From positions 1 through 39,257 of the forward strand of contig JAIRNJ010000208.1 of assembly GCA_031258115.1 (NCBI GenBank): a stretch of 39,257 bases of DNA. The letters are read 5' to 3'. Position numbers and translations under genes: made by a program. Numbering within the stretch: position 1 is the first letter of the stretch; the number at the start of each line of letters is the position of its first letter. Below the pieces are notes generated by a model that saw nothing but the letters and a program-made list of their open reading frames with translations, was not told the origin of the DNA and searched no databases. The stretch is from Treponema sp. (GTDB lineage Bacteria > Spirochaetota > Spirochaetia > Treponematales > Breznakiellaceae). Below are positions 18,626 through 24,910 of the stretch, piece after piece.

Positions 18626-18643
18626 GCAGTATGGGGATACTGC
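18626..18643 (-). terminator. Hairpin at the end of the membrane protein gene
   Basis: A 7-bp perfect stem GCAGTAT-GGGG-ATACTGC begins at the stop codon of the 283-aa membrane protein gene. No strong T-tract follows on the minus strand, so termination is uncertain; it may stabilise the mRNA end. Confidence 0.35.
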
Positions 18644-19494
18644 TAGAGCCACAAATAGACTTTATGCAGCCTTGTGCAGATAAACCATGTTCCTGCCGCC
18701 AGTGCAAGCGATCCGGGAATGGGGCTTATCCAGGTATCGGCGTTGAGCAGAAGATTCCGGCCGAGCAGGACGAGAAAGGAACCTATGCCGATAACAATAA
18801 ATTCCTTTTCGCTCCTGAACCAGGATGAAATAAAGAAACTTATCAGCGTAATGATGAGCATTACGGCTTCCACCAGGCGGAACATGGACAAAAAACCGGA
18901 AATCATGCTGAAACTGGTATCCCAGGAGAGGGTATCCACGGGGACTCCAAGGGCGATGACCAGGGTTGCCACCACTATGACAAAGAGCGTGATACGCTGT
19001 TGCTGGGCCTGGAATCCGGCCGCGTAGATCGAAGCGGCAAAGAGTGAAAAGATACCGGCATAGCGGCCGAAAAGGAGGAACCGCGAAGAGATCATCAGGT
19101 AGATGGGAAGAATCTCATGATCCATGTTCAGGGGCACCACGATCCTCATGGATTCAAAGCCAAAAGACAGCGCAAAAAGGGCAAAAAAAAGGATCTCCGG
19201 AGACTGGGTTTTTTCAAAAAAATAGTAAATAATAATACTGGCGGTGAAAGAATAGAGTACCGAAGCGATTATGGAAATATATGCCCCGTAGGGATTCATT
19301 TCAAAAAATTTTCCCCCAATCAACTGCCCGAATCCGGCGGAACGGCGGAAGGCGGCGGCAACGGCATCCGGACAGGCGGCAATAACCCTTGCCGAACTTG
19401 CAGCCAATATGAAGAGGAACACCGAACTAAGCGCAATGCTCCCTTTTAAAATGGTATTTCTGCCGGATAGGGTCATATAAAAAGCATAACTCAT
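18643..19494 (-). CDS. Conserved integral membrane protein of unknown function
   Basis: A 283-aa hydrophobic protein with about 8 predicted membrane segments (for example SIALSSVFLFILAASS, ILFFALFALSFGF, ITLFVIVVATLVIAL, FIVIGIGSFLVLLG and ALAAGTWFICTRL). An extracytoplasmic loop lies between the first two segments. I cannot assign a family; the layout resembles membrane sensor modules of the 7TM type without an attached output domain. AAAGGA precedes the ATG at 19494. It is divergent from the DUF2259 gene with 85 nt between starts, so the two may share a control region. Confidence 0.7.
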   Translation of the reverse strand: MSYAFYMTLSGRNTILKGSIALSSVFLFILAASSARVIAACPDAVAAAFRRSAGFGQLIGGKFFEMNPYGAYISIIASVLYSFTASIIIYYFFEKTQSPEILFFALFALSFGFESMRIVVPLNMDHEILPIYLMISSRFLLFGRYAGIFSLFAASIYAAGFQAQQQRITLFVIVVATLVIALGVPVDTLSWDTSFSMISGFLSMFRLVEAVMLIITLISFFISSWFRSEKEFIVIGIGSFLVLLGRNLLLNADTWISPIPGSLALAAGTWFICTRLHKVYLWL

Positions 19495-20294: not shown

Positions 20295-20729
20295 TCAGAA
20301 CTCTTCGGGAGGGCTGCAGGGTCTCAGTACCTGAGTCACCGGCAGCCCGTCTTCAAAAAGCCGTCTGAGGAAAACCCTGTTTTCCAGCCTGTAACGTTCC
20401 CAAAGCCCGTCTTTCTGTACTTCCGTTCCCATATATATAAAATCTTCCCGGCTTCTCTTCCCCCGAAGCTGGGCAAAGAGATAATGCCCCGCAGGAATTT
20501 CAAAGCCCGGCTCTCCTCCCGCGCTTACCGGGCGCCGCCTCCCCGCAAAGAGAAGCGGCCCCAGCCACTGCCGCAGATCCGGTTCAATGCTGATCTCTTC
20601 CCCGCGCTTAAGCTCAAAGCAGAATACCTGTTCTTCCCTTTCATCTGTTTCAAAAGGCTCAAGCCCGGAGGCTTCCAGGTAATAAAGCGGAGCGCACAAT
20701 TCCAGATGCTGAAACTCGATAGTTTCCAT
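20295..20729 (-). CDS. Hypothetical protein coupled to DUF4143 ATPase
   Basis: A 144-aa soluble, acidic-to-mixed protein I do not recognise. It has no signal peptide and no membrane segment. A central stretch FCFELKRGEEISIEPDLRQWLGPLLFAG and a C-terminal FIYMGTEVQKDGLWERYRLENRVFLRRLFEDGLP can be seen. Its ATG shares one base with the stop of the preceding AAA ATPase gene (TAATG), so the two are translated together and may act as partners. GGAG lies 8 nt upstream, within the ATPase end. Confidence 0.7.
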   Translation of the reverse strand: METIEFQHLELCAPLYYLEASGLEPFETDEREEQVFCFELKRGEEISIEPDLRQWLGPLLFAGRRRPVSAGGEPGFEIPAGHYLFAQLRGKRSREDFIYMGTEVQKDGLWERYRLENRVFLRRLFEDGLPVTQVLRPCSPPEEF

Positions 20730-21892
20730 TAGATATACTCCAAAAAATTATCAGGGCCTACCACTTCGTAGCTTGCATCGGGGTAACTCTGCCCGAAGGC
20801 CGAAGGGAGTTTTGCGGCTTTTCCCGCCGGCCATTTGAATTCCAGTGCGTGCAGGCGGCCTTCGTATTCTTCCAGCAGATCGATTTTCTGTTTTTCCCAA
20901 GTCCGCCAGAAGTAATCGCGGGCATAGATATTGTTGTAGCTCCGGGTTTTCAGCCGTTCAATAACCATAAAATTTTCCCAGAGCGCGCCGGCGTCATTGC
21001 GGAGGGAAAGGGGATTGAAATTTTTTATCACGGTATTCCGTATCCCCGTATCGTAGAAATAGTACTTGCCTGTTCCGGCAACCTCGTTCCGCAAATTTCT
21101 GCTAAAACCGCGCAGCCTGTAAAGGACAAAATATTTCTCCAGAAGATCAAGATAGCGTTCAACGGTTTTCATATCTATGCCGAGTTCGCCGCCCAGCTCA
21201 TGGAGGCTTAGTTCACTTCCAATCTTCAGGGCAATAAGGGTAAGCAGGTTGACAAGCGCCTGCGGTTTTTTGATGTGTTCTATTTCAAGGATGTCTTTCA
21301 ATAAATAGACATCGGCAAGTTCGTTAAGGATCTTCTTTTTCTCTTCCGCAAAAGCGCAGGTACGGACTTCGGGATACATGCCAAAGACAAGCAGATCTTC
21401 CAGATTCTGCCTGAGTTCAAAGTCGTTCATGGCAGCACGCAATTCTCCGGCGGACAGGGGAAACAGGATGACGGGAACCTGCCGGCCCGTCAGAACTTCC
21501 CCGAATTTGCCGGTAAGATCAAAACTCGAAGAACCGGCAGCAATAACGGTCAGCTCCGGCCGGGAATCCATCAGCATCCTGAGGGCCCCGCCTATATCGG
21601 GTATGCGTTGGGCCTCATCGATAAATACCGTATCGTAGCCGGAGACCCACTCAAGCAGAACACGCGTTTCCCGGTTGGAAAGAAGGCTGCGTTCCGAAAG
21701 CCTGTCCCCGCAGGCGCGGAGAACCCGTGCCCCATGGGGGGAAGCTTCATCTGTTTGTCCGCTTGAAGAAACAAGGTAATGGTTTATCAGGGTTGTTTTC
21801 CCCGCCCTGCGGGGCCCCTGAAGAACCGTTACCCGTTTGGACATCATTAAGTTCTGTAGATTGTCAAAATGACGGGGAATATACCTTTCCAT
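20729..21892 (-). CDS. AAA ATPase with C-terminal DUF4143 domain (second copy)
   Basis: A 387-aa protein with Walker A LQGPRRAGKTTL (about residues 24-35) and Walker B VFIDEAQRIPDIGG. The middle holds the winged-helix-like LGIDMKTVERYLDLLEKYFVLYRLRGFSRN typical before DUF4143. Near the C-terminus KIDLLEEYEGRLHALEFKW keeps the D...ExK nuclease-fold pattern. The domain order matches the other ATPase at 17291-18496, but sequence identity is low. Upstream is an A/T-rich gap of 200 nt. Only a weak GGA precedes the ATG. Downstream the 144-aa gene is coupled by TAATG. Confidence 0.87.
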   Translation of the reverse strand: MERYIPRHFDNLQNLMMSKRVTVLQGPRRAGKTTLINHYLVSSSGQTDEASPHGARVLRACGDRLSERSLLSNRETRVLLEWVSGYDTVFIDEAQRIPDIGGALRMLMDSRPELTVIAAGSSSFDLTGKFGEVLTGRQVPVILFPLSAGELRAAMNDFELRQNLEDLLVFGMYPEVRTCAFAEEKKKILNELADVYLLKDILEIEHIKKPQALVNLLTLIALKIGSELSLHELGGELGIDMKTVERYLDLLEKYFVLYRLRGFSRNLRNEVAGTGKYYFYDTGIRNTVIKNFNPLSLRNDAGALWENFMVIERLKTRSYNNIYARDYFWRTWEKQKIDLLEEYEGRLHALEFKWPAGKAAKLPSAFGQSYPDASYEVVGPDNFLEYI

Positions 21893-22092: not shown

Positions 22093-23241
22093 ATGTCTTT
22101 GTTGAATATTCCTGCTCCGGAAGGAGTAAAACATGATCTCCTGGCTCTGGGCGCCCTGGTAACCAGGCTTAACCCCGGAGTTATCCCCTTTGCGGAGGCG
22201 GATCATTTTACACTTCATGTTTCGGGGGGGGAGTATAATGTAGCGGCAAATCTTTCCAGTTGTTTCGGCATGCGGAGCGCCATTGTTTCCGCCATGGTGG
22301 ATTATCCCATCGGTAAGAGGATAGAGAATGCGGTCAGGCGGGCGGGTGTGGTTCCCTACTACAGGCGTTTTGCCCATGACGGAGTTCGGGGTCCCAATAT
22401 GGCGACTGTCTGGAGCGATGAAGGCCAGGGGGTGCGCCCGCCGGTAGTGTTTTATAATCGTTCCAATGAGGCTGCAGACCGCCTTAAGCCGGGGGACTTT
22501 GACTGGCAGAAAATTTTAGGCTCCGGAGGACAGCCGAATGTGCGCTGGTTTCATTCCGGGGGCATTTTCAGCGCTCTCTCCCCTACAACCCCGGAACTGG
22601 TCATTGAAGCCATGCAGGCGGCAAAGGCCGCCGGAGCGGTGGTTTCCTTTGACCTCAATTACCGGGCCAAGCTCTGGGCGGCGGCTTCCGGGGCAAACGC
22701 CGCAGAGGATTCCGGCTCCGCACAGGCCGGTGAACGGGCGTCAAAGATCCTTCGCAAGATCGTTTCCTATGTGGATGTACTTGTGGGAAATGAAGAGGAT
22801 CTACAGAAGGGCCTGGGAATCCGGGGCCCGGAGGTGGAAAAGGCGGCGGGAAGCGGCAAACGGGAGATGGATGCTTCGGCATTTTTCAATATGATAAAAA
22901 ATGTAGTAAGGGATTTCCCTAACATCAAGGTGGTTGCTACTACTCTGCGGGAAGTCCATTCAACCAACCGTCATTCCTGGTCTGCCCTTCTCTGGCATGA
23001 AGGCAAGGAGTATAGCGCTCCTGTCTGCGAACTGGATATTTATGACCGGGTAGGCGGCGGGGATGGTTTTGCGGCGGGCCTTTTTTATGGTCTCATGAAG
23101 AATAAAAGTCCTGAAGAGGCTCTCCGGCTGGGCTGGGCTCACGGCGCCATGCTCACTACCACCCCCGGAGATACCTCCATGGTAAGTCTTGATCAGGTAG
23201 AAGCTTTTTCTGCGGGAGGTTCCGCACGGATCCAGCGGTAG
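22093..23241 (+). CDS. PfkB-family sugar kinase (KDG-kinase-like)
   Basis: A 382-aa kinase of the ribokinase/PfkB superfamily. The N-terminal HDLLALGALVTRLNPG and SGGEYNVAANLS fit the substrate-binding part. The C-terminal DRVGGGDGFAAGLFYGLM is the ATP/anion-hole motif with the catalytic Asp. Several of these blocks resemble 2-keto-3-deoxygluconate kinases, but the sugar is not certain. There are about 12 residues before the usual start (MSLLNIPAPEGV). A better-looking AAGGAG...ATG at 22133 is out of frame. The promoter suggests a leaderless mRNA. An eight-G run lies in the codons for SGGE. Confidence 0.85.
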   Translation: MSLLNIPAPEGVKHDLLALGALVTRLNPGVIPFAEADHFTLHVSGGEYNVAANLSSCFGMRSAIVSAMVDYPIGKRIENAVRRAGVVPYYRRFAHDGVRGPNMATVWSDEGQGVRPPVVFYNRSNEAADRLKPGDFDWQKILGSGGQPNVRWFHSGGIFSALSPTTPELVIEAMQAAKAAGAVVSFDLNYRAKLWAAASGANAAEDSGSAQAGERASKILRKIVSYVDVLVGNEEDLQKGLGIRGPEVEKAAGSGKREMDASAFFNMIKNVVRDFPNIKVVATTLREVHSTNRHSWSALLWHEGKEYSAPVCELDIYDRVGGGDGFAAGLFYGLMKNKSPEEALRLGWAHGAMLTTTPGDTSMVSLDQVEAFSAGGSARIQR

Positions 23242-23276: not shown

Positions 23277-24593
23277 ATGATTTTAGGAGTACTCAATTCC
23301 GACCCGATCATAAAAAAACTTGTTGAAGACGCTTTTAGTTCCAGCACAAAGCATGAATATAATCCCCGGTTTTTTATCAGTCAAGATGAAATACTTGAAT
23401 TTCTCAATTTTGATCTTCCGGAAATTGTAATTATCAATTTTTCCGATCCGGAAATAGATATCGAGCACATTATTTCCCATATCAAGGAAGACAAGTGGAT
23501 TCTCAACTTCGGCATCATCGGCCTTTATTCCAACGAAAAAGACGAGGAAGAAGCGCTGCTCAAAAAATATATGGCCATCAATCTTCTTACCATGCTGGAC
23601 AGCTTCAGAATCCGCAGTCATCTCATGAAAAGTGTTCAGATTATCGAGCAGAACTACCAGATCATCTTCCAGCAGGAGTTCACCCGGAATCTTTTGGACG
23701 GCGCCTCGGGAGCTTTTACCATCGAAAATGACCTTTTGGCTGTTCCTCTCTTTGCGGGTATCGGCGCCACCATCCTTGCCCAGAGGGGTCTTATCAGGGC
23801 GGAAAACAAGATGCACCTTCAGCTTGCCCTGGGGGAACTCATTGTCAACGCCATTGAGCACGGGAACTGCGGCATTACCTACGAAGAAAAAACCATCGGC
23901 ATGGAAAATGGTCTTTCGGTGGTGGATCTGGTTGCCCTCAAATGCAAGGATCCCCTAATCCGCGGGAAAAAGGTGGAATTTCAGTGGGAAATACAGAATG
24001 ATAAATGTGTCTTTATTATCCGGGATGAGGGGAAGGGTTTCGATGTAAAAGCCCACCTCAAAAAGATTGCAAAACAGGACATGATGAGCCTTCACGGCCG
24101 GGGCATCAGAATGGCGAGTCTTTTTTCAAGCAGTCTTAGTTACAATGACAAGGGAAACCAGGTAACCCTGGAGGTTCTGCATGAGGTTGATGTAGAGCAT
24201 GAAGTTCCTGTCGGTTTTTCAAAGGAAGAAGTGGTGACTGTCAAGCGGGGAGATATAGTTCTCCGGGAAGACGAGCCCTCCGATTATATTTACTATATCG
24301 CTGCCGGTACATATTCGGTGTTTCATAACCTGAAGAAAGTAGGTTCCCTTTCTCCCCAGGATATCTTCATGGGTGAGATGGCGTTCCTTCTGAATCAGCG
24401 CAGAAGCGCTTCCGTGAGGGCCGACGGGCCGGGTAAACTTATACTTATTACCCGCAAGGCTTTTGTTTCCATTGTCCGGGAATATCCGCACTACGGGATC
24501 TTCCTGTCAAAATTGCTGGCAAAACGGCTTGTCCGCAGCAACGATCAGAATGCTACGCTTATCGGAAAACTCAATGAAAAAAGTAACGATTAG
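23277..24593 (+). CDS. Three-domain signalling protein: pseudo-receiver, HATPase, cNMP-binding
   Basis: A 438-aa cytoplasmic protein with an unusual order. Residues 1-120 look like a response-regulator receiver (start LGVLNSDPIIKKLVEDAF, later LPEIVIINFSDPEID), but the phospho-acceptor Asp position appears to be Asn. Residues about 165-305 are a GHKL ATPase of the RsbW/SpoIIAB kind, with N box LGELIVNAIEHGN, G1 box DEGKGFD and G2 HGRGIRMASL. Residues about 320-425 are a cyclic-nucleotide-binding beta-roll with the phosphate cassette MGEMAFLLNQRRSASV. It may phosphorylate or sequester a partner in response to a nucleotide (inference). AAGAAGG precedes the start; a small gene follows by 9 nt. 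Confidence 0.85.
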   Translation: MILGVLNSDPIIKKLVEDAFSSSTKHEYNPRFFISQDEILEFLNFDLPEIVIINFSDPEIDIEHIISHIKEDKWILNFGIIGLYSNEKDEEEALLKKYMAINLLTMLDSFRIRSHLMKSVQIIEQNYQIIFQQEFTRNLLDGASGAFTIENDLLAVPLFAGIGATILAQRGLIRAENKMHLQLALGELIVNAIEHGNCGITYEEKTIGMENGLSVVDLVALKCKDPLIRGKKVEFQWEIQNDKCVFIIRDEGKGFDVKAHLKKIAKQDMMSLHGRGIRMASLFSSSLSYNDKGNQVTLEVLHEVDVEHEVPVGFSKEEVVTVKRGDIVLREDEPSDYIYYIAAGTYSVFHNLKKVGSLSPQDIFMGEMAFLLNQRRSASVRADGPGKLILITRKAFVSIVREYPHYGIFLSKLLAKRLVRSNDQNATLIGKLNEKSND

Positions 24594-24602
24594 GGGGAAA
24601 AG

Positions 24603-24887
24603 ATGGCAACCGTTGAAGAATTGAGAGAAACACTGGAGGCATTATCAAACAAAATTGCTTCTGCGGGAGAAGGAGCAGTGGTGGAACTGGACACTGTCAG
24701 TAAACTTGCTGCCGAAGCCGGCAGTTTGGGCATGAAGGCGGGAAAGCAGTTGTTGGACAATCTGGCTGCTTCTCTGCAGTCTGTAAAAGACGGCAAGTCT
24801 CATGCCGATAGCATACAGGTGAGGATTACCGCTCTGGACTTTTATCTAAACAAGATCAAGGGTGGCTCAGGCGAAGAAGAGCTGTAA
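24603..24887 (+). CDS. Small helical protein, likely partner of the signalling protein
   Basis: A 94-aa protein with no recognised family. It is predicted to be almost fully alpha-helical, with heptad-like stretches (VEELRETLEALSNKIASAG, LLDNLAASLQSVKDG) and an acidic tail GSGEEEL. AGGGGGAAAAG precedes the ATG. It starts 9 nt after the three-domain protein, and an intrinsic terminator follows, so the two form one unit. It could be the phosphorylation or binding target of the HATPase domain, but no phospho-site motif is evident. Confidence 0.72.
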   Translation: MATVEELRETLEALSNKIASAGEGAVVELDTVSKLAAEAGSLGMKAGKQLLDNLAASLQSVKDGKSHADSIQVRITALDFYLNKIKGGSGEEEL

Positions 24888-24893
24888 TTCCCC

Positions 24894-24910
24894 AAAGCCT
24901 GCGGCTTTTT
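24894..24910 (+). terminator. Intrinsic terminator after the small helical gene
   Basis: AAAGCC-TGC-GGCTTTTT: a 6-bp stem with a 3-nt loop and a T-run, 7 nt after the TAA. It separates the signalling unit from ddl, which therefore needs its own promoter. A palindrome GATCC-GGCA-GGATC follows at 24921-24934; its reverse complement recurs at 30207-30220. Confidence 0.7.

Follow-up and report, generated by a model that had tools for sequence, protein, structure and literature searches.

The large gene of the window (the whole stretch of 39,257 nucleotides of Treponema sp. DNA that was analyzed) encodes a protein that combines a receiver fold with an RsbW-like Bergerat ATPase and, at the C-terminus, a cyclic nucleotide-binding domain (CNBD). 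This protein probably acts as a cyclic nucleotide (cNMP)-controlled switch of the RsbW/LvrC type, with a sigma or STAS target encoded elsewhere, a reading to which we assign a probability of about 0.6. The object of interest is the three-domain family as a re-wired relative of LvrC with a cNMP input, and not the pair that the large gene forms with a small gene located downstream. The window corresponds to contig 228 in an assembly of 2.9 Mb; among named organisms, termite-gut ‘Treponema’ metagenome-assembled genomes (MAGs) are the nearest relatives of this assembly. The following features were distinguished at this locus:

22093-23241, + strand: pfkB-family sugar kinase gene, 35 nt upstream of the large gene
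23277-24593, + strand: ORF of the 438-aa three-domain protein, with an ATG start and an AGAAGG-like RBS
23277-23651, + strand: pseudo-receiver, residues about 1-125, with N54, N7, Y84 and M106 at the receiver key positions
23703-24179, + strand: Bergerat/RsbW-like HATPase, residues about 143-301, assigned by Pfam, motif alignment and model
24222-24584, + strand: CNBD, residues about 316-436, assigned by Pfam, alignment, model and fold match
24603-24887, + strand: ORF of the 94-aa three-helix protein, 9 nt after the stop of the 438-aa ORF, with a GGGGGA RBS
24894-24908, + strand: weak hairpin after the small gene, with a 6-bp stem followed by U residues

The three-domain architecture of the 438-aa protein was borne out by domain searches and structure prediction. 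Pfam assigned HATPase_c_2 to residues 167-298 (E 1.9e-13, above the cut-off) and cNMP_binding to residues 320-402 (E 6.7e-15). The receiver was not recognised by Pfam, and residues 32-298 aligned with the receiver-Bergerat chain 9QIH in a phmmer search of the PDB (E about 2e-13). The AlphaFold model, obtained for a single chain with 19 homologues (pLDDT 79.9, pTM 0.75), contains alternating strands and helices of a receiver-like kind in residues 1-125, followed by a Bergerat domain, a CNBD built as a beta-roll and, at the C-terminus, a long helix (residues 404-436); its confidence is modest at the domain interfaces, and residues 132-142 and 269-272 have a pLDDT below 50. The best Foldseek match to this model was again 9QIH (E 2.5e-17), followed by many cNMP-bound CNBDs (CRP, HCN, SthK; E about 1e-8). 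The dN/dS ratio of the gene, about 0.15-0.2 among close relatives, indicates purifying selection. A role in a defence system was considered and rejected: the PADLOC matches comprise only the CNBD of Pycsar effectors, and there is no defence context.

Conservation of individual residues was scored over 67 distinct aligned orthologues of the 438-aa protein. The Bergerat motifs, i.e. the N-box (E187, N191 and EHG194-196), the G1 box (D250xG252xG254) and the G2 box (G274xG276), are invariant, as are Y289, N290, G293 and N294. In SpoIIAB and RsbW, the N-box Glu and Asn have roles in catalysis and Mg binding. The phosphate-binding cassette of the CNBD reads F364-x-G366-E367 ... R376-S-A378-S, and F364, G366, E367, F370, R376 and A378 are present in every orthologue. 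Judging from these residues, both the ATP site and the cyclic-nucleotide pocket of the family are intact, in agreement with an earlier note on this DNA that had proposed an RsbW-like kinase-type domain fused to a cyclic-nucleotide sensor. The Ser/Thr following the cassette Arg would be compatible with either cAMP or cGMP.

The same note had described a receiver that seemed to have lost its phospho-Asp. This was confirmed for the window protein, which has N54 at the phospho-acceptor position, N7 at the acidic position, Y84 at the Thr position and M106 at that of the catalytic Lys, and the loss of chemistry extends throughout the orthologues. Position 54 is occupied by N (41 of 67), D (16), Y (9) or C (1). 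Position 7 is N, S, T or C in all 67, without a single acidic residue, the Thr/Ser position is mostly F, Y or H, and position 106 is V, M, L, I, F or T in all 67, with no Lys. On this alignment, the receiver is dead at the level of the family.

The arrangement had been thought rare, and it turned out to be common among spirochaetes. One scan revealed 32 related loci, nearly all of them spirochaetal, together with one in a SAR324 MAG. Full-length orthologues were found in roughly half of the 99 relatives’ genomes searched, usually one per genome, and a phylum-wide search detected full-length three-domain members in several further spirochaete families. The homologue from the SAR324-cluster MAG (L034; 35% identity), outside the spirochaetes, has all three domains and may reflect transfer or a binning error.

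One orthologue is located at about 1,081,126-1,082,403 in a 1.14-Mb treponeme genome (G069). In an excerpt of PMC3373638, the ‘cyclic nucleotide binding protein’ TP0995 (TPChic0995) is placed at 1,080,774-1,082,108, and because the two positions are so near each other, the G069 orthologue is almost certainly TP0995 of T. pallidum, the syphilis bacterium. The tp0995 gene is listed as one of the signalling genes in which the SS14 and Nichols ancestors differ (PMC8735616). At the acceptor position the TP0995-type protein (L085) has Asp, whereas the window protein has Asn, and its receiver lacks both the acidic residue and the Lys of a working receiver.

The 94-aa helical protein was present 9 nt downstream, as had been described. 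Its model is a three-helix bundle (pLDDT 86), and dN/dS values of 0.08-0.4 among close relatives indicate purifying selection. No family match was obtained in Pfam, NCBIfam, PADLOC or PHROGs, and no confident PDB fold match was given by Foldseek. The lack of a family match, together with the all-helical model, led us to reject a STAS antagonist. A pseudo-HPt docking on the pseudo-receiver was likewise rejected: the Foldseek matches to CheA P1/HPt had E values of 0.65 or worse, generic four-helix bundles scored similarly, there was no Pfam Hpt match, and hhalign gave a probability of 5-9% against treponemal HPt domains. The alignment of the family contains no conserved His and no invariant phospho-acceptor. 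The conserved Ser70 was dropped as a candidate phosphosite, since it is located where a helix begins and Asn takes its place in locus L129, which fits a helix cap better. The family is small and treponemal, and 35 of the 150 host-family genomes contain it. A second, distant copy, 99 aa long (L139:4989-5288, genome G033), is situated inside a SWIM zinc finger/CoxE-like VWA/DUF5682 cluster, which may point to a function alongside MoxR/VWA-type systems.

It had been suggested that the 94-aa protein is the likely target of the large one; the two would then form a closed switch, with the large protein as kinase and the small one as its dedicated substrate or partner. In at least nine host-family genera the small gene comes immediately after the large one, and within this family the large gene is present in 14 of the 19 genomes with the small gene versus 15 of the 41 without it, which is above expectation (Fisher p 0.012, uncorrected for kinship). 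In L129, DHH is followed by an M16 peptidase gene, the large gene and the small gene. In L128, L131 and L134, belonging to three other genera, the small gene comes next after DHH and M16, at a distance of 0 to about 180 nt from M16, and no full-length large gene was found in these assemblies. The order of L129 is the ancestral one, and in the other three loci the large gene has disappeared from between M16 and the small gene. The pair is thus old, but the small gene persists where the large one has been lost, and it seems to have a role of its own. Elsewhere the small gene adjoins unrelated genes or stands without the large gene, and most carriers of the latter have no adjoining copy, among them Treponema putidum and the T. 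pallidum-like G069, where none lies beside the TP0995-type orthologue. Conservation of the pair is therefore partial: adjacency in some genera and a modest co-occurrence stand against three genera that keep only the small gene. Since the conserved Ser can be Asn, and the protein is neither a STAS protein nor a demonstrable HPt, the case for a dedicated target is weak. The 94-aa protein is real but probably not the dedicated target of the large protein, and the closed switch is quite unlikely.

In another interpretation, the large protein would be a scaffold independent of phosphorylation, in which ATP is structural and which binds, in a cNMP-dependent manner, a histidine kinase or a chemotaxis or motility protein instead of a sigma factor or STAS protein. 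A receiver that keeps its fold and has dead chemistry would agree with this, as in atypical receivers such as FrzS (excerpt of PMC1974792), and so would the light-driven nucleotide messenger that controls motility in Leptospira kobayashii (excerpt of PMC9043183). However, a purely structural site would need neither the N-box Glu nor the Mg-binding Asn, both of which are invariant, and no linkage of the large gene to chemotaxis or flagellar genes was found; we consider a scaffold unlikely. Highly improbable, in our estimate, is a protein that integrates a phosphorelay with cNMP through members still phosphorylated on the Treponema pallidum/denticola side. The Asp at position 54 in 16 of the 67 orthologues speaks for it, but these members have neither the acidic Mg-binding residue nor the catalytic Lys, which makes phosphorylation chemistry very unlikely in them, and the window protein itself has Asn.

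Gene neighbourhoods were also considered as pointers to the client of the switch, and this approach was abandoned. The pfkB gene is the upstream neighbour in close relatives only (10 loci) and is thus not part of a conserved system; in the window, the gene pair is followed by a D-Ala-D-Ala ligase gene. The neighbours of the large gene change by clade (pfkB/ddl, M16/DHH/S41, glycogen-branching-type, aminotransferase), so that linkage is uninformative and indicates no client. No STAS or sigma gene was found among the window neighbours or the conserved neighbours of the large gene. A terminator had been placed after the 94-aa gene; the 6-bp hairpin with U residues is there, but it folds no better than shuffled sequence (z -0.64) and was not listed by the terminator scan. 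The window also contains, on the - strand, genes for an apparent membrane protein of 283 aa, without a match in Pfam (18643-19494), and for an AAA_14/DUF4143 ATPase (20729-21892).

Possible sources of the signal and possible clients were identified in the window genome by family searches. It contains seven class III cyclase domains. At least one class III cyclase was detected in each of the 20 carrier genomes tested and in 13 of the 16 tested non-carriers, so the co-occurrence is consistent but not specific. Two STAS proteins, one of them with a DSSGIG motif, have their genes on other contigs, at L153:4995-5330 and L154:4929-5480. A search for a SpoIIE phosphatase in the window assembly (92% complete) gave none; four genus-mate genomes encode one to three each, so this absence may represent an assembly gap, and it was dropped as an argument against partner switching. 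Contig 22 of the same genome (G000; L155:4947-5915) encodes a 322-aa protein in which an RsbW-like HATPase is joined to two CBS domains, apparently another ligand-gated Bergerat protein.

We propose that the large protein is a switch protein of the LvrC (RsbW-like) type with a changed input. Because its chemistry is lost, the receiver would serve only for dimerisation or docking. The C-terminal CNBD, with its intact pocket, would sense cAMP or cGMP produced by class III cyclases; once a nucleotide is bound, the hinge and the long helix at the C-terminus (residues 404-436) would shift, and this movement would alter the way in which the ATP-loaded Bergerat dimer holds on to its client or phosphorylates it. 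Given the RsbW/SpoIIAB/LvrC fold, the client would most likely be a sigma factor and/or a STAS anti-anti-sigma protein encoded elsewhere. The 94-aa helical protein would be an accessory, once co-transcribed and still so in some genera, which probably acts independently as well. As for the new nucleotide-controlled partner-switching module suggested in the earlier note, a nucleotide-controlled anti-sigma-type switch remains plausible from the domain content, but the 94-aa protein is probably not its dedicated target.

To our knowledge, spirochaetes make cyclic nucleotides whose receptors, beyond CRP-like proteins and channels, are largely unassigned. The combination of a CNBD with an RsbW-like output provides a concrete candidate route by which cAMP or cGMP could reach transcription without CRP, and the family offers an explanation for conserved, uncharacterised proteins such as TP0995. 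It would also illustrate clearly, in nature, how one input can be exchanged for another while the output domain stays the same. More tentatively, at somewhat less than even odds, we suggest that an LvrC-type phosphorelay anti-sigma protein was converted once, as its receiver chemistry was lost and a CNBD was gained, into a directly cAMP/cGMP-gated anti-sigma switch, that this switch is found phylum-wide, and that it is a main effector of cAMP in treponemes, one that even the minimal genome of T. pallidum has retained.

The REC-Bergerat core itself is not new, since its nearest relative with a solved structure has already been described: LvrC of Leptospira, a Rec-regulated putative anti-sigma factor whose receiver is phosphorylated on D53 by the histidine kinase LvrB and whose anti-sigma role is a proposal of the source paper (PMC13269768). 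Chain 9QIH is LvrC of Leptospira interrogans (lic11110) according to both the fold-library entry and PMC13269768; its designation as ‘SenB’ was discarded, as the literature under that name concerns unrelated proteins. LvrC and the window protein share the order of an N-terminal receiver followed by a Bergerat domain, similarity over residues 32-298 of the latter and a common segment after the N-box, and LvrC is the top fold match. They differ in that LvrC has a canonical receiver and no CNBD in the 304-residue chain solved, whereas in the window protein the receiver is dead (N54, no Lys) and a CNBD forms the C-terminal part. The window protein is of the LvrC type, but its receiver no longer works and a CNBD has been added.

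Two-domain relatives of about 300 aa were also found in the phylum, and among 13 sequences the acidic residue and the Lys are each kept in 10, with D or E at the acceptor position. In eight of these 13 LvrC-like proteins (L183-L195) the acceptor is Glu, a natural phosphomimic, and the Lys is kept in most; this subgroup possibly has constitutively ‘on’ receivers. In a tree of the Bergerat domain only, all 21 three-domain proteins sampled fall into a single group, separate from the two-domain LvrC-like ones (support 99/97, present in all 200 bootstrap trees), and LvrC itself lies on a long branch. The simplest reading is that a phosphorylation input was replaced once by a cyclic-nucleotide input, with a polarity that is only presumed because the root of the tree is not known.

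With RsbW and SpoIIAB the window protein has in common the HATPase_c_2 fold and the N-box Glu/Asn, G1 and G2 motifs. Those proteins are single-domain and encoded beside rsbV/sigB-type genes, whereas no sigma or STAS gene is adjacent here, and the curated NCBIfam models of RsbW score the window protein far below their cut-offs (NF003144, 15.3 bits against 145; TIGR01924, 12.5 against 155). Its CNBD resembles those of the CRP/PKA type, including the HCN and SthK channels, in the fold (matches at E about 1e-8) and in a cassette with invariant Glu and Arg. Unlike CRP-type proteins it has no helix-turn-helix, and its output is a Bergerat ATPase, whereas CRP-type proteins, PKA-type proteins and channels have DNA-binding, kinase or channel outputs.
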